Shown piece by piece: positions 33,259 to 54,681 of a stretch of 64,000 nt of DNA; the stretch's first letter is position 1, and the number at the start of each line of letters is the position of its first letter. The position numbers and the translations under genes were made by a program. The notes beneath the pieces were generated by a model that ran no database searches, was not told the origin of the DNA, and saw only the letters and a list, made by a program, of their open reading frames with translations. This stretch comes from Cellulophaga sp. HaHa_2_95 (lineage in GTDB: Bacteria; Bacteroidota; Bacteroidia; Flavobacteriales; Flavobacteriaceae): assembly GCF_019278565.1 (NCBI RefSeq), contig NZ_CP058988.1:4030001-4094000 (forward strand). Direction: 5' to 3'.

Positions 33259-33330
33259 GCTGCGAAAGATTTACTATTATAATTCTATAGGTTCTAACCA
33301 ATTTCTCGCTTAATAACCTTTCTTTAATCG

Positions 33331-33403
33331 CACGGGAGGAGAGACTCGAACTCCCGACACCTGGTTTTGGAGACCAGTGCTCTACCAACTGAGCTACACC
33401 CGT
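33331..33403 (-). tRNA. tRNA-Trp (CCA anticodon)
   Basis: The 73-base cloverleaf folds with a 7-bp acceptor (one T-T mismatch), D arm GCTC/GAGC, anticodon stem CTGGT/ACCAG with loop CTCCAAA (anticodon CCA), and T arm GGGAG/CTCTC with loop TTCGAGT. CCA is not encoded. It lies between tuf and secE, a conserved place. Confidence 0.97.
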
Positions 33404-47277: not shown

Positions 47278-47862
47278 ATGAAAAAAAATATTTTAAGTGC
47301 CGTATTTGCAATCGTAATAGCTACCGCTGCAACAGCAGGAGTAAACCCAATAGATGGTGAAAAGAAAGCCGTTAAAACAAAAGAGAGTACTGTAACTTGG
47401 AAAGGGTACAAATTTGCAGGATCTCATGAAGGTAAGATTGCTTTACAGTCCGGAGAATTACTATTTGAAGGTGATAAATTAACAGGCGGTGAATTTGTTG
47501 TAGATATGGCAAGTATTACGGTTGGAGATTTGGCTGCTGGTCAAGGAAAAGAAAAATTAGAAGGCCACCTAAAAGCTGATGACTTTTTTGGAACTGAAAA
47601 TTACGCAACATCAAAATTAGTTTTTACGAGCGTAAAAGCAACTGGTAAAAATTCTTATGATGTTACTGGAGATTTAACCATTAAAGGCATTACAAAAGCA
47701 GTTACTTTTGACATCTCTGTATATGGTAGCAAAGCAACAGCTACTTTAAAGGTAGATAGAACTAACTATGATATACACTATGGCTCTACAAATTTCACAG
47801 ATACTTTAAAGGATAAAGCTATTTATGATGAATTTGACTTAGTGGTTGATTTACAGTTTTAA
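47278..47862 (+). CDS. YceI family periplasmic protein
   Basis: 194 residues with a signal peptide (KKNILSAVFAIVIATAATAG). The YceI lipocalin-like barrel follows: STVTWKGYKFAGSHEGKIAL, FVVDMASITVGDL, GHLKADDFFGTENYATSKLV and GDLTIKGITKAVTFDI. Members bind isoprenoid quinones or similar amphiphiles. It lies 32 bases after the nitroreductase and ends at a terminator, so it is the last gene of the marR unit. Confidence 0.92.
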   Translation: MKKNILSAVFAIVIATAATAGVNPIDGEKKAVKTKESTVTWKGYKFAGSHEGKIALQSGELLFEGDKLTGGEFVVDMASITVGDLAAGQGKEKLEGHLKADDFFGTENYATSKLVFTSVKATGKNSYDVTGDLTIKGITKAVTFDISVYGSKATATLKVDRTNYDIHYGSTNFTDTLKDKAIYDEFDLVVDLQF

Positions 47863-47881: not shown

Positions 47882-47918
47882 AAACCCCATTGTACTGTTA
47901 ATTCGTATAATGGGGTTT
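47882..47918 (+). terminator. Terminator after the YceI gene
   Basis: A 10-bp stem (AAACCCCATT at 47882-47891, AATGGGGTTT at 47909-47918) with a 17-base loop is followed by ATTTTTTT. It ends the marR-nitroreductase-YceI transcript 20 bases before the trp promoter begins. Confidence 0.88.
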
Positions 47919-47938
47919 ATTTTTTTACACAATGCTGT

Positions 47939-47968
47939 TTGAAATCTTAAAAATGATTTCTATCTTTG
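47939..47968 (+). promoter_or_regulatory. trp operon promoter
   Basis: TTG (47939-47941; TTTG with the preceding base), a 19-base spacer and TATCTTTG (47961-47968) match the phylum consensus on both elements. The predicted start at about 47973-47975 coincides with the first codon of the leader peptide, so the transcript is leaderless or nearly so. Confidence 0.75.
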
Positions 47969-47974
47969 AAGTCA

Positions 47975-48031
47975 ATGAAAAATTTAACTGTAAATACTTG
48001 GTGGTGGAATAACTTACGAAAAAACGCGTGA
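47975..48031 (+). CDS. trpL: trp operon leader peptide
   Basis: An 18-residue ORF, MKNLTVNTWWWNNLRKNA, has three consecutive Trp codons (TGG TGG TGG at 47999-48007). It sits between a good promoter and a terminator hairpin in front of trpE. This is the layout of ribosome-mediated attenuation: low charged tRNA-Trp stalls the ribosome at the Trp codons and prevents the terminator from forming. The Trp codons can pair (TGGTG with CACCA near 48038) as a pause-type hairpin. I could not identify a strong antiterminator by eye. Confidence 0.85.
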   Translation: MKNLTVNTWWWNNLRKNA

Positions 48032-48059
48032 GCATAGCACCATTGTATTCAATTTATAT

Positions 48060-48093
48060 AAGGCTTGTCATCACGACAAGCCTTACTTATTTT
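48060..48093 (+). terminator. trp attenuator
   Basis: A perfect 10-bp stem (AAGGCTTGTC at 48060-48069, GACAAGCCTT at 48075-48084) with loop ATCAC is followed by ACTTATTTT. It lies 28 bases after the leader peptide stop and 20 bases before trpE. Its position between leader and first structural gene makes it the attenuator rather than an end-of-gene terminator. Confidence 0.85.
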
Positions 48094-48104
48094 ATAGCAT
48101 TAAC

Positions 48105-49502
48105 ATGACGTACAAACTACATACCCATTACAAAAAAATACTTGCTGATACCATTACACCAGTAAGCGTATACCTTAAAATTCGCGATCGCTTTCCTAAC
48201 AGTATACTACTAGAAGGAAGCGATTACCATGCTAATGACAACAGTTTCTCTTATATCTGCTGCAATCCTATTGCATCTATTAAAGTAGAAAACGAAAGTA
48301 TCACCCAGCAGTTCCCAGATGGTAAGGTTGAAGAAATAGCTATTGATGCTTCTACGGATGTAGTAAGTATCATTGAAAATTACAGCAAGCGATTTATTGC
48401 CGATGAGAACGATTTTAAATTTATTGACAACGGCCTCTTTGGTTATATGGCATATGATGCGGTTCGGTACTTTGAGGATGTAAAGGTTTCTAAAAAAGAA
48501 AACTCTGTTGCTATCCCAGATATCTACTATGCGGTATACAAAAATATCATCGCTATAAATCATTTTAAAAATGAAGCGTATATTTTTTCTAACTGTTATG
48601 AGTCTGAAAGTAATGTATCTGAAATAGAGCAGATATTAAATGTAAAGAATTTTGCTTCTTATAACTTTACCCTAGATGGTGCAGTTGCTTCAAATTTAGA
48701 AGACGATGATTTTAAAGAACATGTAAAACTGGCTAAAAAGCACTGCCAAAGAGGAGATGTTTTTCAACTAGTATTATCACGTCGTTTTTCCCAAGGGTTT
48801 AAAGGTGATGAATTTAATGTTTATAGAGCGCTGCGCTCTATCAATCCATCACCGTACTTATTCTATTTTGATTATGGCGATTTTAAAATATTCGGAAGTT
48901 CTCCAGAAGCACAATTAGTCGTTAAAGATGGTGCTGCAGAAATTCATCCAATTGCAGGCACATTTAAACGTACCGGCGATGATGAAAAAGATGCGATTAT
49001 CGCAAAAGAATTGACGGAGGATGACAAAGAAAATAGTGAGCATGTGATGCTCGTAGACTTAGCGCGAAATGACTTGAGTCGTAATGGAAATATGGTGAGA
49101 GTAACCAACTACCGCGAAGTACAATTCTTTTCGCATGTGATACACCTAGTATCTAAAGTGGTGGGACAAAAGAAAAAAGACATCCCTACGATGAAAGTAG
49201 TTGCAGATACTTTTCCTGCAGGTACGCTAAGTGGTGCGCCCAAACATATGGCCATGCAATTGATAGAAAAATACGAAAAAACAAGCAGAGGCTATTATGG
49301 TGGTGCTATAGGTTTTATGGATTTTAACGGGAATTTTAATCATGCCATTATGATTAGAACCTTCCTTAGCAAAAATCATAGCTTACATTACCAAGCTGGA
49401 GCAGGTATTGTTGCTGCCTCTAACCCTGAAGACGAATTACAAGAGACCTATAATAAACTTGGTGCTTTAACAAAAGCACTTGAAATTGCTGAGACCATAT
49501 AA
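48105..49502 (+). CDS. trpE: Anthranilate synthase component I
   Basis: 465 residues. It shows the chorismate-binding fold: CQRGDVFQLVLSRRFSQGF, SPSPYLFYFDYGDFKIFGSS-like region (INPSPYLFYFD, FGSSPEAQLVVK), IHPIAGTFKRTGDDEKDAII and the TFPAGTLSGAPKHMAMQLIE block. It converts chorismate with ammonia from TrpG into anthranilate. The N-terminal part likely binds Trp for feedback inhibition. It begins the structural trp genes, and its end is 2 bases from trpG. PabB is excluded by the complete trp context. Confidence 0.96.
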   Translation: MTYKLHTHYKKILADTITPVSVYLKIRDRFPNSILLEGSDYHANDNSFSYICCNPIASIKVENESITQQFPDGKVEEIAIDASTDVVSIIENYSKRFIADENDFKFIDNGLFGYMAYDAVRYFEDVKVSKKENSVAIPDIYYAVYKNIIAINHFKNEAYIFSNCYESESNVSEIEQILNVKNFASYNFTLDGAVASNLEDDDFKEHVKLAKKHCQRGDVFQLVLSRRFSQGFKGDEFNVYRALRSINPSPYLFYFDYGDFKIFGSSPEAQLVVKDGAAEIHPIAGTFKRTGDDEKDAIIAKELTEDDKENSEHVMLVDLARNDLSRNGNMVRVTNYREVQFFSHVIHLVSKVVGQKKKDIPTMKVVADTFPAGTLSGAPKHMAMQLIEKYEKTSRGYYGGAIGFMDFNGNFNHAIMIRTFLSKNHSLHYQAGAGIVAASNPEDELQETYNKLGALTKALEIAETI

Positions 49503-49504
49503 TC

Positions 49505-50071
49505 ATGAAGAAAATTTTAGTTATAGATAATTACGATAGCTTCACCTATAATCTAGTTCATTACTTAGAAGACCTAGATTGCGAAGTGGTTGTAAAAAGA
49601 AACGATCAACTTTCTTTAGAAGAGGTTGATGCTTTTGAATACATTGTTCTTTCCCCAGGACCAGGGATCCCAGAAGAGGCAGGTTTATTAAAAGATATTA
49701 TTAGAACCTACGCCCCTACAAAGAAAATTTTTGGTGTTTGCTTAGGGCAACAAGCGATTGCCGAAGTCTTCGGTGGCTCATTAATTAACCTTGAGCAGGT
49801 TTATCATGGTATTGCTACGCCTATTTCTATCACGCAAGAAGATACTATTTTTAAAGATTTACCGACAGAAATAAAAGTGGGTCGCTACCATTCTTGGGTC
49901 GTAAACCCTAAAGAATTACCCAACTCTTTGATCGCTACATCTTTTGATGTAAACGGACAAATAATGTCATTGCGCCATACCACATATGATGTATCCGCAG
50001 TACAATTTCATCCAGAGTCTGTATTGACTCCCGACGGGAAAAAGATATTACAGAATTGGTTACTATCTTAG
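49505..50071 (+). CDS. trpG: Anthranilate synthase component II (glutamine amidotransferase)
   Basis: 188 residues, class I amidotransferase. It starts ILVIDNYDSFTYNLVHYLED. The oxyanion region LSPGPGIPEEAG precedes nucleophile Cys79 in GVCLGQQAIAEVFGG, and the His/Glu pair lies in VQFHPESVLTP near 170. It supplies ammonia to TrpE. In some bacteria the same subunit also serves PabB; that cannot be judged here. Confidence 0.96.
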   Translation: MKKILVIDNYDSFTYNLVHYLEDLDCEVVVKRNDQLSLEEVDAFEYIVLSPGPGIPEEAGLLKDIIRTYAPTKKIFGVCLGQQAIAEVFGGSLINLEQVYHGIATPISITQEDTIFKDLPTEIKVGRYHSWVVNPKELPNSLIATSFDVNGQIMSLRHTTYDVSAVQFHPESVLTPDGKKILQNWLLS

Positions 50072-50164
50072 GCTAGAAAAGAAACACATAATTTTAGGAG
50101 GACCAAAAAATAAAGTAATAACACACTAAAAACCGCTCTAGTTTAGAACGGTAAAGAGGCGATT

Positions 50165-51160
50165 ATGAAAGATATATTAAACAGACTAATTAATCACGAT
50201 GTACTGCCTAAAGCAGATGCCAAGCAGGTATTGGTTAACATTGCAAAAGGAGATTACAACACCAGTCAGATTGCTGCTTTTTTAACGGTATATATGATGC
50301 GAAGTGTCACTATAGAAGAACTAGAAGGCTTTCGTGATGCCTTGCTAGAGCTTTGTTTAGCGGTAGATTTATCTGCCTATAATCCAGTAGACTTATGCGG
50401 TACTGGTGGTGATGGTAAAGATACTTTTAACATCTCTACACTAGCTTCTTTCGTTACTGCAGGTGCTGGTATTAAAGTGACCAAACATGGTAATTATGGT
50501 GTGTCTTCAAAATGCGGAAGCAGTAATGTCATGGAATTTTTAGGCATCAAATTTAGTAGTGATGCTGGCTTTTTAGAAAAAAGTATTGATGAGGCCGGAA
50601 TTTGCGTTTTACACGCTCCCCTATTTCACCCAGCCATGAAAAATGTAGCTCCCATCCGAAAAGAACTAGCGGTTAAAACATTTTTCAATATGTTAGGGCC
50701 TATGGTAAACCCTGCCTTCCCAAAGAACCAAATGGTAGGTGTTTTTAATCTAGAACTGGCTAGAATGTATGGATACCTTTATCAGAATACAGATAAAAAT
50801 TTCACTGTACTTCATGCCTTAGATGGGTATGATGAAATTTCACTAACCGGAAATACAAAAACTATATCCAACACTACAGAAAGCATGCTTAAGCCTTCAG
50901 ATTTTGGCGTGCGTGCTGTTACCATGCAAGAAATTGCAGGGGGAGAAAGTATTGAAGCATCTGCTCAAATATTTTTAAATATTTTACAAGGAAAAGGTAC
51001 AGAAGCTCAAATTAATGTGGTGTGTGCTAATGCCGGAATGGCCATTGCTACGGTTGACAGTTTAACGCCTATGCAAGGTTTTGAAAGAGCAAAAGAATCA
51101 TTAGTAAGCGGAAAAGGATTAGCCGCTTTAAAAAAACTACAAGCATTGAGCGCCTTATAA
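50165..51160 (+). CDS. trpD: Anthranilate phosphoribosyltransferase
   Basis: 331 residues. The PRPP-binding loop LCGTGGDGKDTFNIST is at about 78-93, followed by KHGNYGVSSKCGSSNVMEFL and the domain HPAMKNVAPIRKELAVKTFF. It transfers phosphoribose to anthranilate. The 93-base gap after trpG is the largest inside the operon apart from trpF-trpB. It holds an imperfect inverted repeat (ACCG...CGGT near 50131-50151), with no T tract to make a terminator. Confidence 0.96.
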   Translation: MKDILNRLINHDVLPKADAKQVLVNIAKGDYNTSQIAAFLTVYMMRSVTIEELEGFRDALLELCLAVDLSAYNPVDLCGTGGDGKDTFNISTLASFVTAGAGIKVTKHGNYGVSSKCGSSNVMEFLGIKFSSDAGFLEKSIDEAGICVLHAPLFHPAMKNVAPIRKELAVKTFFNMLGPMVNPAFPKNQMVGVFNLELARMYGYLYQNTDKNFTVLHALDGYDEISLTGNTKTISNTTESMLKPSDFGVRAVTMQEIAGGESIEASAQIFLNILQGKGTEAQINVVCANAGMAIATVDSLTPMQGFERAKESLVSGKGLAALKKLQALSAL

Positions 51161-51168
51161 AGAATAAG

Positions 51169-51957
51169 ATGAACATATTAGATAAAATAGTAATAGACAA
51201 ACGCAAAGAGGTAATCCTTAGAAAGTCTTTAATTCCAATAAAGCAATTAGAGCAATCGGTTTTATTTGATAGACCTGAAAATTCTCTAGCAATTGCACTA
51301 CGCAATAGTGCCTCTGGCATCATTGCAGAACACAAAAGAAGATCGCCTTCTAAATCAGAAATTAATCAAAGTTTAAATGTGCAAGATGTTGCTACGGGCT
51401 ATGAAGATGCAGGAGTGTGTGGCATGTCTGTTTTAACCGATGCCAAATATTTTGGTGGTTCGCTAGATGATCTTCTCATTGCAAGAGCAGCTACTAAGTT
51501 TCCATTACTGCGTAAAGAATTTATCATAGATGAATACCAACTTTTAGAAGCAAAAGCATACGGGGCAGATGTAATTTTATTGATTGCTGCTATTTTATCT
51601 AAAGAAGAAATTAAAAATCTTTCTGAGTTTGCAAAAAGCCTAAAACTAAATGTACTATTAGAGGTTCATAATGAAGAAGAGTTACAGAAATCTATCATGC
51701 CAAGCTTAGATATGTTAGGCGTAAACAATAGAAACTTAAAGACGTTTGACGTAAGCCTTGAAACCAGTAAAGCACTTTCTACCTTAATTCCTGATGATTT
51801 TATAAAAGTTTCTGAAAGCGGAATTAGTTCTATTGCTGCTATTCAAGATTTGAAAAACTATGGATACCAAGGTTTTTTAATTGGTGAAAATTTTATGAAA
51901 ACGGATGCTCCTGGAGCTCATGCCAAAAAATTTATTGAACAATTAGAAGCGAAATAA
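51169..51957 (+). CDS. trpC: Indole-3-glycerol phosphate synthase
   Basis: 262 residues, a TIM barrel. The catalytic and phosphate-binding signatures are present: IIAEHKRRSPSKSEINQSL with the catalytic Lys, SVLTDAKYFGGSLDDL, LRKEFIIDEYQLLEAKAYGA, LLEVHNEEEL, GVNNRNLKTF and SESGISS. It closes the pyrrole ring to give indole-3-glycerol phosphate. It is separate from trpF here, not fused as in E. coli; the spacer to trpF is 7 bases. Confidence 0.97.
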   Translation: MNILDKIVIDKRKEVILRKSLIPIKQLEQSVLFDRPENSLAIALRNSASGIIAEHKRRSPSKSEINQSLNVQDVATGYEDAGVCGMSVLTDAKYFGGSLDDLLIARAATKFPLLRKEFIIDEYQLLEAKAYGADVILLIAAILSKEEIKNLSEFAKSLKLNVLLEVHNEEELQKSIMPSLDMLGVNNRNLKTFDVSLETSKALSTLIPDDFIKVSESGISSIAAIQDLKNYGYQGFLIGENFMKTDAPGAHAKKFIEQLEAK

Positions 51958-51964
51958 TATAAAA

Positions 51965-52648
51965 ATGACGGCAGATAAATACACCATATCAGACAACACA
52001 CCGACCACTTTAGAGCATCATCATTTAAAGTTAAAAATTTGCGGGATGAAATTTAATACCGCTAATGTTGCTGCGTTGCAACCTGATTATTTAGGATTTA
52101 TCTTTTGGGAACCTTCTAAAAGAAATTTTGAAGGCCCACTGGAAGCAATTCCACATCACATTAAAAAAGTGGGGGTATTTGTTGATGCTACTATCGAAGA
52201 AATTTCTCGTAAAGTTGAAGATTATAAGTTACTGGCTGTGCAGCTTCATGGTCATGAATCTCCTGAATTTTGCGAAGCATTAAAAGCAAAAATTAGCACC
52301 ATTCAAATCATTAAAGTTTTCTCTATCAAAGACGAATTTAATTTTGAAGCTTTAGAAGCCTATGAAGAGGTCGCAGATTTCTTTTTATTTGACACCAAAG
52401 GAAAACTTCCAGGAGGAAATGGCTATACTTTTAATTGGGATGTATTGAATAATTACCCTTCTAAAAAAACCTATTTTCTAAGTGGCGGTATTGGTCTTGA
52501 AGAAGTAAGTAAGCTAGAAGCCTTTTTAAAGATACCCGCTTCAAAATATTGCCATGCTATAGATGTTAATAGCAAATTTGAAACATCACCTGGCCTTAAG
52601 GATATAGACCGCTTAGAACAATTGATAAAAAATTTGAAAAAGAACTAA
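51965..52648 (+). CDS. trpF: Phosphoribosylanthranilate isomerase
   Basis: 227 residues. The barrel start LKLKICGMKFNTANVAAL holds the catalytic Cys, then PDYLGFIFWEPSKRNF, KVGVFVDATIEEI and LFDTKGKLPGGNGYTFNWD with the catalytic Asp. About 21 residues (MTADKYTISDNTPTTLEHHH) precede the usual start, and no nearer ATG exists, so the extension appears real. It isomerises phosphoribosylanthranilate to CdRP. Confidence 0.95.
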   Translation: MTADKYTISDNTPTTLEHHHLKLKICGMKFNTANVAALQPDYLGFIFWEPSKRNFEGPLEAIPHHIKKVGVFVDATIEEISRKVEDYKLLAVQLHGHESPEFCEALKAKISTIQIIKVFSIKDEFNFEALEAYEEVADFFLFDTKGKLPGGNGYTFNWDVLNNYPSKKTYFLSGGIGLEEVSKLEAFLKIPASKYCHAIDVNSKFETSPGLKDIDRLEQLIKNLKKN

Positions 52649-52724
52649 AATACATTGGAATCTTAAGCATTCTATTACGACTAAAAAGAGAATACTTTTT
52701 ATTTCTTACAAAATACTAATTCAC

Positions 52725-53906
52725 ATGAATTATAACGCAACTGAAAAAGGATACTACGGAGAATTTGGTGGAGCATACATCCCAGAAATGCTATACCCAA
52801 ACGTGGAAGAGTTACGCCAGAACTACCTTAAAGTAATGGCTGAACCGGACTTTAAAAAAGAATTTGATCAGCTTCTAAAAGATTACGTCGGCAGACCTTC
52901 TCCATTATACTTTGCTAAACGACTTTCAGAAAAATACAATACGAAAGTATATTTAAAGCGTGAAGACCTGAACCATACTGGAGCTCACAAAGTAAATAAT
53001 ACGATTGGCCAAATATTAATGGCTAAGCGTCTTAAAAAAACTAGGATTATTGCTGAAACTGGCGCAGGACAACACGGAGTAGCAACGGCAACCGTTTGCG
53101 CATTAATGGGCATGAAATGCGTGGTATATATGGGGGAAATAGATATTGCACGCCAAGCACCCAACGTAGCACGCATGAAAATGCTAGGTGCCGAAGTTAG
53201 GCCCGCCTTATCTGGCAGTAGAACCCTAAAGGATGCTACTAATGAAGCCATCCGGGACTGGATTAATAATCCCGTAGACACCCATTATATTATAGGTTCT
53301 GCTATAGGTCCACACCCGTACCCTGATATGGTCACGCGTTTCCAATCTATTATTTCTGAAGAAATAAAATGGCAACTAAAAGAAAAAGAAGGACGCGAAA
53401 ATCCTGATTATGTTGTAGCTTGTATAGGTGGCGGTAGTAATGCTGCAGGTACATATTATCATTTTTTACACGAACCAGAAGTAGGTATCATTGCGGTAGA
53501 AGCAGCTGGTAAAGGTGTAAATTCTGGCGAAAGCGCTGCAACTTCAGCCTTAGGAAAAGAAGGTGTAATCCATGGTTGTAAAACTTTATTAATGCAAACT
53601 AATGACGGACAAATTACAGAACCGTATTCTATCTCCGCAGGATTAGATTATCCGGGAGTAGGACCTTTGCATGCTCACCTCTATACCTCTGGTCGCGGAG
53701 AATTTTATTCTGCCACAGATGATGAAGCTATGCATTCTGGCTTAGAATTAACGCAATTAGAAGGTATTATTCCTGCTATAGAAACGAGTCATGCTCTAGC
53801 CATCTTTAAACATAAGACCTTTAAACCAGACGATGTTGTTGTTATTAGTTTATCTGGTCGTGGAGATAAAGATTTAGATAATTATATAAAATATTTCAAT
53901 TTGTAA
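52725..53906 (+). CDS. trpB: Tryptophan synthase beta chain
   Basis: 393 residues. The PLP lysine is Lys89 in LNHTGAHKVNNTIGQIL, the phosphate loop is ACIGGGSNAAGTYYHF, and the monovalent-cation/active-site region GLDYPGVGPLHAHLYTSGRG is intact. It condenses indole with serine, receiving indole from TrpA by tunnel. It is the canonical TrpB1 type by length and by pairing with trpA 13 bases downstream. Confidence 0.98.
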   Translation: MNYNATEKGYYGEFGGAYIPEMLYPNVEELRQNYLKVMAEPDFKKEFDQLLKDYVGRPSPLYFAKRLSEKYNTKVYLKREDLNHTGAHKVNNTIGQILMAKRLKKTRIIAETGAGQHGVATATVCALMGMKCVVYMGEIDIARQAPNVARMKMLGAEVRPALSGSRTLKDATNEAIRDWINNPVDTHYIIGSAIGPHPYPDMVTRFQSIISEEIKWQLKEKEGRENPDYVVACIGGGSNAAGTYYHFLHEPEVGIIAVEAAGKGVNSGESAATSALGKEGVIHGCKTLLMQTNDGQITEPYSISAGLDYPGVGPLHAHLYTSGRGEFYSATDDEAMHSGLELTQLEGIIPAIETSHALAIFKHKTFKPDDVVVISLSGRGDKDLDNYIKYFNL

Positions 53907-53919
53907 AAAAATAGTATCA

Positions 53920-54681
53920 ATGAACAGAATAAATCAAAAAATGCAAGAGGACAAAAAACTCTTGTCTATCTATTTTACTGCAGGATACCCATCTTTAAAT
54001 GATACCGTAAAAGTGATTCAAGATTTAGAGGCGAGCGGTATTGACATGATTGAAATAGGATTGCCTTTTAGCGACCCTCTGGCAGATGGACCTACCATTC
54101 AAAACAGTTCTACAGCTGCATTGAAAAATGGGATGACCACAACTATTCTCTTTGAGCAATTGAAAGACATCCGGAAATCGGTATCCATTCCCTTAATCTT
54201 AATGGGCTATTTTAACCCGATGTTGCAATACGGTGTAGAAGCCTTTTGTAAGAAATGTGCAGAAATAGGGATTGATGGGCTAATTATGCCAGATTTACCG
54301 CTAGATGTGTATCAAGACGAATATGAAGCTATTTTCAAGAAATATGATTTAAAAAATATCTTCCTAATTACGCCACAAACAAGTGATGCCCGCATTCTAC
54401 AAATTGATGCTGCTTCTGATGCCTTTATTTATATGGTGAGTACTGCAAGTGTTACAGGGTCAAAGTCTGGCTTTGGCGAAGAACAAACTTCCTATTTTAA
54501 TCGTATTGCTGCTATGAACCTTAAAAACCCTCAGATAGTAGGTTTCGGGATTAATAACTCAAGTACTTTTAAGCAAGCTACAACACATGCTAAAGGTGCT
54601 ATTATTGGTTCTGCCTTTATAAAGCATCTTACAGAACATGGCGTAGCTACTATTCCTGAGTTTGTAAAGGAAATTAGATAG
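53920..54681 (+). CDS. trpA: Tryptophan synthase alpha chain
   Basis: 253 residues. The catalytic Glu45 and Asp56 sit in DMIEIGLPFSDPLADGPTIQ. The flexible loop and phosphate-binding strands follow (FIYMVSTASVTGSKSGFG, VGFGINNSSTFKQA, IIGSAFIKHL). It cleaves indole-3-glycerol phosphate and feeds indole to TrpB. Last enzyme of the operon. Confidence 0.97.
   Translation: MNRINQKMQEDKKLLSIYFTAGYPSLNDTVKVIQDLEASGIDMIEIGLPFSDPLADGPTIQNSSTAALKNGMTTTILFEQLKDIRKSVSIPLILMGYFNPMLQYGVEAFCKKCAEIGIDGLIMPDLPLDVYQDEYEAIFKKYDLKNIFLITPQTSDARILQIDAASDAFIYMVSTASVTGSKSGFGEEQTSYFNRIAAMNLKNPQIVGFGINNSSTFKQATTHAKGAIIGSAFIKHLTEHGVATIPEFVKEIR

Follow-up and report, generated by a model that had tools for sequence, protein, structure and literature searches.

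A probable trp attenuator of the Bacteroid-trp type in Cellulophaga with a predicted near-leaderless leader peptide and a candidate antiterminator

Introduction

In Escherichia coli trpL (Rfam RF00513), the Trp codons of a short leader ORF are combined with alternative 1:2, 2:3 and 3:4 structures and with a stop codon that adjoins region 2, and the leader has a 5′ UTR and a ribosome-binding site. A further trp leader is known from the alphaproteobacterium Sinorhizobium meliloti. Its trpL/rnTrpL transcript is reported to begin at the ATG of the leader ORF, which encodes a 14-aa peptide, so leaderless trp attenuators already exist (PMC7298713). In the Bacteroidota, whose mRNAs are described as being without Shine-Dalgarno sequences (PMC6847099), the Bacteroid-trp motif (Rfam RF01692) was catalogued by Weinberg et al. 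2010 (PMC2864571). It has been noted before the Flavobacterium psychrophilum trp operon (PMC6414381), and in that species transcript start mapping, combined with structure, gave “strong clues” that amino-acid operons are attenuated through leader peptides (PMC9723704). The RF01692 listing and the F. psychrophilum reports mean that this kind of attenuator is not new. The accessible portions of the two F. psychrophilum reports mention neither leaderless leader peptides nor an antiterminator (PMC6414381, PMC9723704), and a literature search covering titles and abstract openings, with most subscription papers outside its scope, found no leaderless attenuator leader in the Bacteroidota.

Here we describe the trp leader of the marine bacterium Cellulophaga sp. 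HaHa_2_95 within a 64-kb stretch (4030001–4094000) of its one-contig genome; the whole of this stretch we call the window, and its coordinates are used throughout. We are confident, if short of certain, that this leader is a ribosome-mediated transcription attenuator orthologous to RF01692, in which transcription would start near the leader AUG and region 2 would act as the antiterminator strand. It follows the logic of E. coli trpL and, if its predicted near-leaderless start is right, it would be like S. meliloti trpL in description. The mechanism itself is known; what is added is the predicted location of the antiterminator and a predicted near-leaderless start across a clade.

Anatomy and family membership of the trp leader

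The following features were assigned between the gene upstream of the trp promoter and the end of the trp operon:

47278–47862: YceI-family gene (Pfam), upstream of the trp promoter
47882–47926, + strand: terminator-like hairpin with T tail, read by eye, between the YceI-family gene and the trp promoter
47938–47941, + strand: −33-like element TTTG, from the sequence
47961–47968, + strand: −7 element TATCTTTG, from the sequence, 19 nt after TTTG
47973–47974, + strand: predicted transcript start, from the 4–5 nt between −7 element and start described for Flavobacterium johnsoniae (PMC6847099)
47975–48031, + strand: trpL leader ORF of 18 codons, MKNLTVNTWWWNNLRKNA, with its ATG at 47975, from sequence and comparison
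47999–48007, + strand: three consecutive Trp codons (TGG TGG TGG), from the sequence
47993–48049, + strand: predicted 1:2 (protector) structure, from the fold and the Rfam consensus stem
47993–47997 with 48045–48049, 48000–48006 with 48038–48044, and inner hairpin 48013–48018 with 48027–48032, + strand: predicted pairs of the 1:2 structure, from the fold
48027–48038, + strand: candidate 5′ strand of the antiterminator (region 2), which includes the leader stop TGA at 48029–48031
48063–48075, + strand: candidate antiterminator 3′ strand, from the fold and from co-variation of its loop part
48059–48085, + strand: intrinsic terminator, arms 48059–48069 and 48075–48085 (11 bp), loop 48070–48074 (5 nt)
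48086–48095, + strand: T-rich terminator tail CTTATTTTAT, from the terminator scan
48105–54681, + strand: trpE, trpG, trpD, trpC, trpF, trpB and trpA, ORFs named from Pfam families and gene order

The ATG of trpE is placed at 48105 by both the ORF list and Pfam. The hairpin at 47882–47926 is not in the output of the terminator scan, which had a loop limit of 8. A preliminary description of this DNA had pointed to a consensus promoter, an 18-residue ORF with three consecutive Trp codons and a terminator hairpin before trpE, and all three stand: the promoter is read as the Bacteroidota arrangement TTTG-N19-TATCTTTG at 47938–47968, with a −7 box spacing that is kept in relatives, the ORF occupies 47975–48031 with TGG x3 at 47999–48007, and the 11-bp hairpin with its T-rich tail lies at 48059–48085, between the leader ORF and the first gene. 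Folding of the leader as a whole (47973–48104) gave a z of −4.55. The window also holds a tRNA-Trp (CCA) gene at 33330–33403 on the minus strand, with Thr, Gly, Tyr and Thr tRNA genes nearby.

At default cut-offs, an Rfam search of the window returned five tRNAs only, the trp leader being without a match. A permissive search matched RF01692 at 47954–48069 with an E of 1e-4 and 46.2 bits, below the curated cut-off of 49, and by cut-off alone the Cellulophaga copy is a predicted RF01692 orthologue just below threshold. Ten of the 20 relatives tested reach 49 bits, among them a locus from the same genus (L005) at 50.5. Like the family, the Cellulophaga leader has a Trp-codon ORF and a stem directly upstream of Bacteroidota trp genes (here trpE at 48105), the short ORF with its consecutive Trp codons falling in the 5′ strand of the model, and it aligns over model positions 1–131; a Bacteroid-trp element likewise lies upstream of trp in F. 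psychrophilum (PMC6414381). Unlike the Cellulophaga leader as read here, the model stops at the terminator 5′ arm GGCUUGUC, without the terminator loop or the antiterminator, and its alignment, which begins at 47954, has its first ~19 bases ahead of the predicted Cellulophaga transcript start.

A survey of 198 genomes of the phylum, with strict filters through which weak matches are lost, found RF01692 in 18 at E ≤ 0.001 (that of Cellulophaga included), 15 of them over the cut-off and all 18 Flavobacteriaceae. The family is not confined to the Flavobacteriaceae, since one of 14 control genomes, Bacteroides ihuae, also gave a match over the cut-off. The window has no match to RF00513 (Trp_leader), so the Cellulophaga leader was not assigned to that family. 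Among 20 relatives a single sub-threshold RF00513 match was seen, at 463–570 of L053, a Flavobacteriaceae genome (31.6 vs 41 bits).

Conservation of the leader peptide and of promoter spacing

Two partly overlapping sets of trpE loci were compared. A trpE search in 100 genomes gave 98 matches at E ≤ 0.001, and the 74 at ~1e-130 or better were taken as orthologues (L001–L074), weaker, paralogue-like matches being excluded. The second set comprises the best 80 of 584 confirmed trpE relatives, on titled genome contigs of which many bear the titles of uncultured bacteria; among these best 80, Cellulophaga baltica DSM 24729 has the nearest named trpE (99%). The preliminary description had suggested comparing trpE upstream regions, and that comparison bore it out, for a WWW leader lies upstream of trpE in all 80 of the best 80 of 584 loci. 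Of the 74 orthologues, 70 have a leader that contains WW, which is extended to WWW in 62 (including L031, which has a TTG start), and no WW leader was found in L069, L071, L072 and L073. The first Trp codon is preceded by 8 codons in 77 and by 7 codons in 3 of the best 80 of 584, and by 7–9 codons in 42 of the 45 ATG-started leaders of the more distant orthologues L025–L074. With 7–8 codons so constant before the first Trp codon, the leader start codon is firmly placed.

Where does the transcript begin relative to this codon? The gap between the TATCTTTG box and the leader ATG is 6 in Cellulophaga sp. HaHa_2_95 and, with 4–5 nt from −7 element to start as at probable promoters of F. johnsoniae, it predicts a 5′ UTR of 1–2 nt; RNA polymerase thus probably starts 1–2 nt before the leader AUG, as judged from the promoter consensus. 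In F. psychrophilum the box is placed at −12 to −5 (PMC9723704). Little weight is given to the TTTG at 47938–47941, because F. johnsoniae promoters show only a weak −33 motif (PMC6847099). Nor did we use the match to a generic sigma-70 model as promoter evidence; it reaches only 9/12 at the trp promoter, and 7 such sites occurred in 901 bases vs 3.9 expected by chance.

The spacing counts that follow come from kindred genomes that are not independent samples, take no account of phylogeny and cannot be added across the two locus sets, which share genomes. A perfect TAnnTTTG box stands at a gap of 3–8 from the leader ATG, corresponding to a predicted 5′ UTR of about 0–4 nt, in 77 of the best 80 of 584 loci, the exceptions being L096 (one-mismatch box, gap 4), L084 (gap 28) and L095 (gap 30). 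Gaps were measured from the promoter-proximal in-frame ATG, which gives 5–7 for five Arenibacter loci, Aurantibacter and L112. Near relatives (L001–L024) have a gap of 3–8 in 23 of 24, with a one-mismatch box at gap 4 in L014. For the 50 distant loci (L025–L074) the gap is 3–8 in 12, 9–13 in 7, 14–21 in 17 and above 21 in 1, while a perfect box is absent in 8 and an ATG-started WW ORF in 5. As a genome baseline we took a 464-kb sample (the window and 20 other stretches) in which 185 ORFs, 120 aa or longer and with uncurated starts, have at least 60 nt of intergenic sequence upstream: a perfect box lies within 150 nt upstream of 39, at a gap of 4–8 in 5 of these 39, and the median gap is 25. 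A near-leaderless trpL start is therefore supported by the conserved promoter-to-ATG spacing. The preliminary description had gone further, proposing a leader without any 5′ UTR; the near-leaderless part of that claim is backed by the spacing in relatives, but the predicted start is at 47973–47974 and not on the ATG.

Could the same attenuator have a real 5′ UTR, its main start lying upstream or the TATCTTTG box being unused, so that the leader would not be leaderless at all? Leadered versions do occur in other genera of the family, namely the 17 distant loci with gaps of 14–21, and published transcript maps are mostly leadered, with leaders of >10 nt in 87% of transcripts from probable promoters in F. 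johnsoniae (PMC6847099) and a median UTR of 24 nt, with 5.5% leaderless mRNAs, in F. psychrophilum (PMC9723704); UTRs of <10 nt make up ~3.7% in Bacteroides thetaiotaomicron (PMC7366714). Yet the terminator-like hairpin and its T tail end 11 nt upstream of TTTG, the 3–8 nt box spacing is kept in 77 of the best 80 of 584 loci, and in 77 of the same 80 it is the proximal ATG that gives exactly 8 codons before WWW. We consider a real 5′ UTR unlikely on these grounds and retain the near-leaderless start.

The terminator and a candidate antiterminator

The terminator hairpin alone folds with −16.0 kcal/mol, a value matched by none of 200 shuffles, its arm shows unusual conservation, reading GGCTTGTC in 48 of the 49 loci L001–L049, and scanning of 69 loci placed a terminator after the leader in 66. 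The predicted 1:2 structure folds with −16.6 kcal/mol; 2 of 200 shuffles did as well. A stem of this type is also present in the RF01692 consensus. Co-variation did not support the 1:2 helix in divergent loci, where 3,646 of 20,000 permutations were as good in an ungapped test, a test that is weak because the segments overlap and the stems are bulged.

A competing structure had been sought by folding, as the preliminary description proposed, and a candidate emerged that pairs 48027–48038 with 48063–48075 and whose loop part co-varies. The region of the leader stop codon, often UCGUGA (UGA being the stop), can pair with UCACGA, a sequence that spans the terminator loop and the start of the 3′ arm. 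In Cellulophaga the predicted pairs are 48027–48031 with 48071–48075 (loop and first 3′-arm base), 48032–48034 with 48066–48068, and 48036–48038 with 48063–48065. Compared with shuffled sequences, the helix between stop region and terminator loop reaches p ≤ 0.05 at 57 of the 66 loci. The nine that do not reach p 0.05 are L001, L003, L052, L054, L060, L063, L064, L065 and L070; the first of these is Cellulophaga sp. HaHa_2_95 itself, whose 5-bp loop helix is borderline (shuffle p 0.055).

Support for this pairing can be found in its co-variation. In 16 loci without the CACGA loop, a set that omits L041 (full loop UUCACGA) and L025 (CACGA kept), pairing of each locus with its own loop had a mean score of 14.0 vs 8.7 (sd 0.9) when loops were swapped, and 0 of 20,000 permutations were as good. 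The same figure, 0 of 20,000, was obtained with one locus per distinct loop (n=13), and the outcome did not change with 18 loci and 15 distinct loops once L041 and L025 were included. Taken singly, L025, L054, L063, L064, L065 and L070 give little or no support, at least 3 of the 16–17 foreign loops being as good as their own. Pairings that have changed and have been kept include UCGCAAU/AUUGCGA in L048, UCGCGA/UCGCGA in L051, GGAUUC/GAAUCC in L053, GAGAAG/CUUCUC in L060 and L068, and GUUGGUG/CACCAGC in L074.

The RNA beyond a ribosome stalled at the last Trp codon was folded, up to and including the third 3′-arm base. The antiterminator domain of the Cellulophaga locus then reached −10.6 kcal/mol, a value that 18 of 200 shuffles equalled or bettered, and the terminator 5′ arm was also engaged; inspection by eye showed such engagement in the majority of the 66 loci. 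With the 3′ arm included, the terminator is favoured at equilibrium (−18.1), and antitermination must then be kinetic, taking place during RNA synthesis. The antiterminator is accordingly readable in the predicted folds as the stop-codon region 48027–48038 paired with the terminator 5′ arm and loop at 48063–48075, an alternative that, from the predicted structure and the co-variation, would be exclusive with the terminator. Unlike in E. coli trpL, the best co-varying pairs of this candidate antiterminator involve the terminator loop.

The same pairing could instead be seen as a pseudoknot, or as a site for a trans-acting or protein partner, that aids termination, and both the position of the co-varying part, in the terminator loop and the first base or bases of the 3′ arm, and the unusual conservation of the GGCTTGTC arm would suit such a role. 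We rate it as quite improbable. The loop helix directly abuts the 3′ arm, with zero nt separating them, and helix geometry suggests that the full stem and the loop helix could hardly coexist; the 5′ arm is engaged too, both in the Cellulophaga fold and, as judged by eye, in the majority of the 66; and region 2 would be exposed only while a ribosome waits at the Trp codons, when termination would be senseless. We therefore continue with region 2 as the candidate antiterminator strand.

Proposed mechanism

From the observed anatomy and conservation, the co-variation of region 2 with the loop and the short spacing between promoter and ATG, we infer how the leader could respond to tryptophan, and very probably it regulates trp transcription according to tryptophan supply. 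If transcription starts 1–2 nt before the AUG, then, logically, the ribosome must load onto a bare 5′ end. The leading edge of the ribosome is taken as lying ~12 nt beyond the A site. When charged tRNA-Trp is ample, the ribosome would arrive at the stop codon (48029–48031) and cover region 2, blocking the antiterminator, so that the terminator at 48059–48085 would end transcription. When charged tRNA-Trp is scarce, the ribosome would pause at 47999–48007, the 1:2 structure would be broken and region 2 (48027–48038) would be left free to capture the terminator 5′ arm and loop as they emerge from the polymerase, and transcription would proceed into trpE. Were no ribosome to load, region 2 would be hidden by the 1:2 structure and the terminator would form. 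The predicted outcomes are thus read-through for a ribosome stalled at Trp, termination for one at the stop codon and termination with no ribosome. The classical ribosome-mediated attenuation proposed earlier for this locus agrees with the comparative tests, the one exception being the 1:2 helix, for which permutation in divergent loci gave no support.

That the WWW ORF is a functional translated small protein, with attenuation secondary, seems to us hardly credible: flanking residues are kept in many loci (N-T before WWW, N-L-R after it), but these residues coincide with the RNA pairing segments AAUAC and CUUACG, the C-terminal part and the stop position beyond WWW vary between genera, and at 66 of the 69 loci a terminator lies downstream.

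Leader peptides of other amino-acid operons

Leaders of the same general form occur elsewhere in the Cellulophaga sp. HaHa_2_95 genome. Its his operon (L173) has the leader MKNTTTHHHHFYTCFQAR, with HHHH, before hisG, at a gap of 7 from a one-mismatch box. An IIILL-rich leader peptide precedes ilvD (L174) and an FFFYFFF leader precedes the prephenate dehydratase gene (L177), and each of these three leaders precedes a terminator-like hairpin (by eye).

Across 30 his loci, an HHH leader was found in 29, with a gap of 6–8 in 22 and of 15–20 in 7; the boxes were perfect in 5 of the 29 and had one mismatch in 24. Trp and his gaps could be set side by side in 29 related genomes, counted here with kinship ignored, as were the his and ilv loci: both were short in 22 and both long in 6, so that 28 of the 29 were concordant and one (G026) was discordant, the gap of 17 of the TTG-started L031 trp leader being used in this comparison. 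Among 18 ilv loci (L208–L225), an Ile/Leu/Val-rich leader ORF was found in 10, none by the criterion used in 7, and L224 was left out; the 10 leaders have short gaps, all with one-mismatch boxes, and at the ilv locus of the Cellulophaga genome itself (L208) the one-mismatch box, at gap 4, has a rival in TAGGTTTG at gap 30. Since most his boxes and all the short-gap ilv boxes have one mismatch and the ilv survey is patchy, his and ilv back the trp result weakly. For the Phe-rich leader at the prephenate dehydratase gene the box has one mismatch and the gap is 18 (by eye), so a near-leaderless start is not universal among leaders.

Implications

What do these leaders have in common beyond the single locus? 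On balance we favour the view that Cellulophaga, Maribacter, Zobellia, Arenibacter, Flagellimonas and near relatives carry attenuator leader peptides (for trp, for his at least in Cellulophaga and a few near genera, and perhaps for ilv) on mRNAs with a 5′ UTR of 0–4 nt, in a phylum that is normally leadered without Shine-Dalgarno sequences, and that other genera of the family have the same leaders on UTRs of ~10–17 nt. These would form a natural leaderless/leadered pair of one device, with an antiterminator that nucleates on the terminator loop. Because predicted UTR length varies between genera and the number of codons before Trp is constant, the effect of the UTR on attenuation is comparable in such natural pairs. 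The leader would thereby provide a specific, testable example of leaderless translation under a demand for speed in the Bacteroidota, with their mRNAs without Shine-Dalgarno sequences (PMC6847099), and a mapped antiterminator would complete the RF01692 model, which now ends at the terminator 5′ arm.

Variant arrangements at other trpE loci

Several trpE loci depart from the simple arrangement. In L069 and L071, from reduced genomes of ~0.6 Mb, a TATATTTG box and a GAGGCTTGTC hairpin are retained before trpE and the WW leader ORF was not found; their trp leader may be a decaying attenuator. At 8 of the best 80 of 584 loci (L078, L110, L116, L120, L126, L140, L146 and L153) the trp attenuator is separated from trpE by extra sequence. 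It holds an ORF of at least 60 aa in 7 of the 8, that of L110, the one compared with Pfam, being GIY-YIG, and none that long in L153; an ORF in this position would be Trp-controlled. Tandem trp attenuators precede trpE in L058 (at −283 and −150 relative to the trpE start) and L059 (−297 and −149), each unit consisting of a WWW leader ORF and its own terminator-like hairpin.
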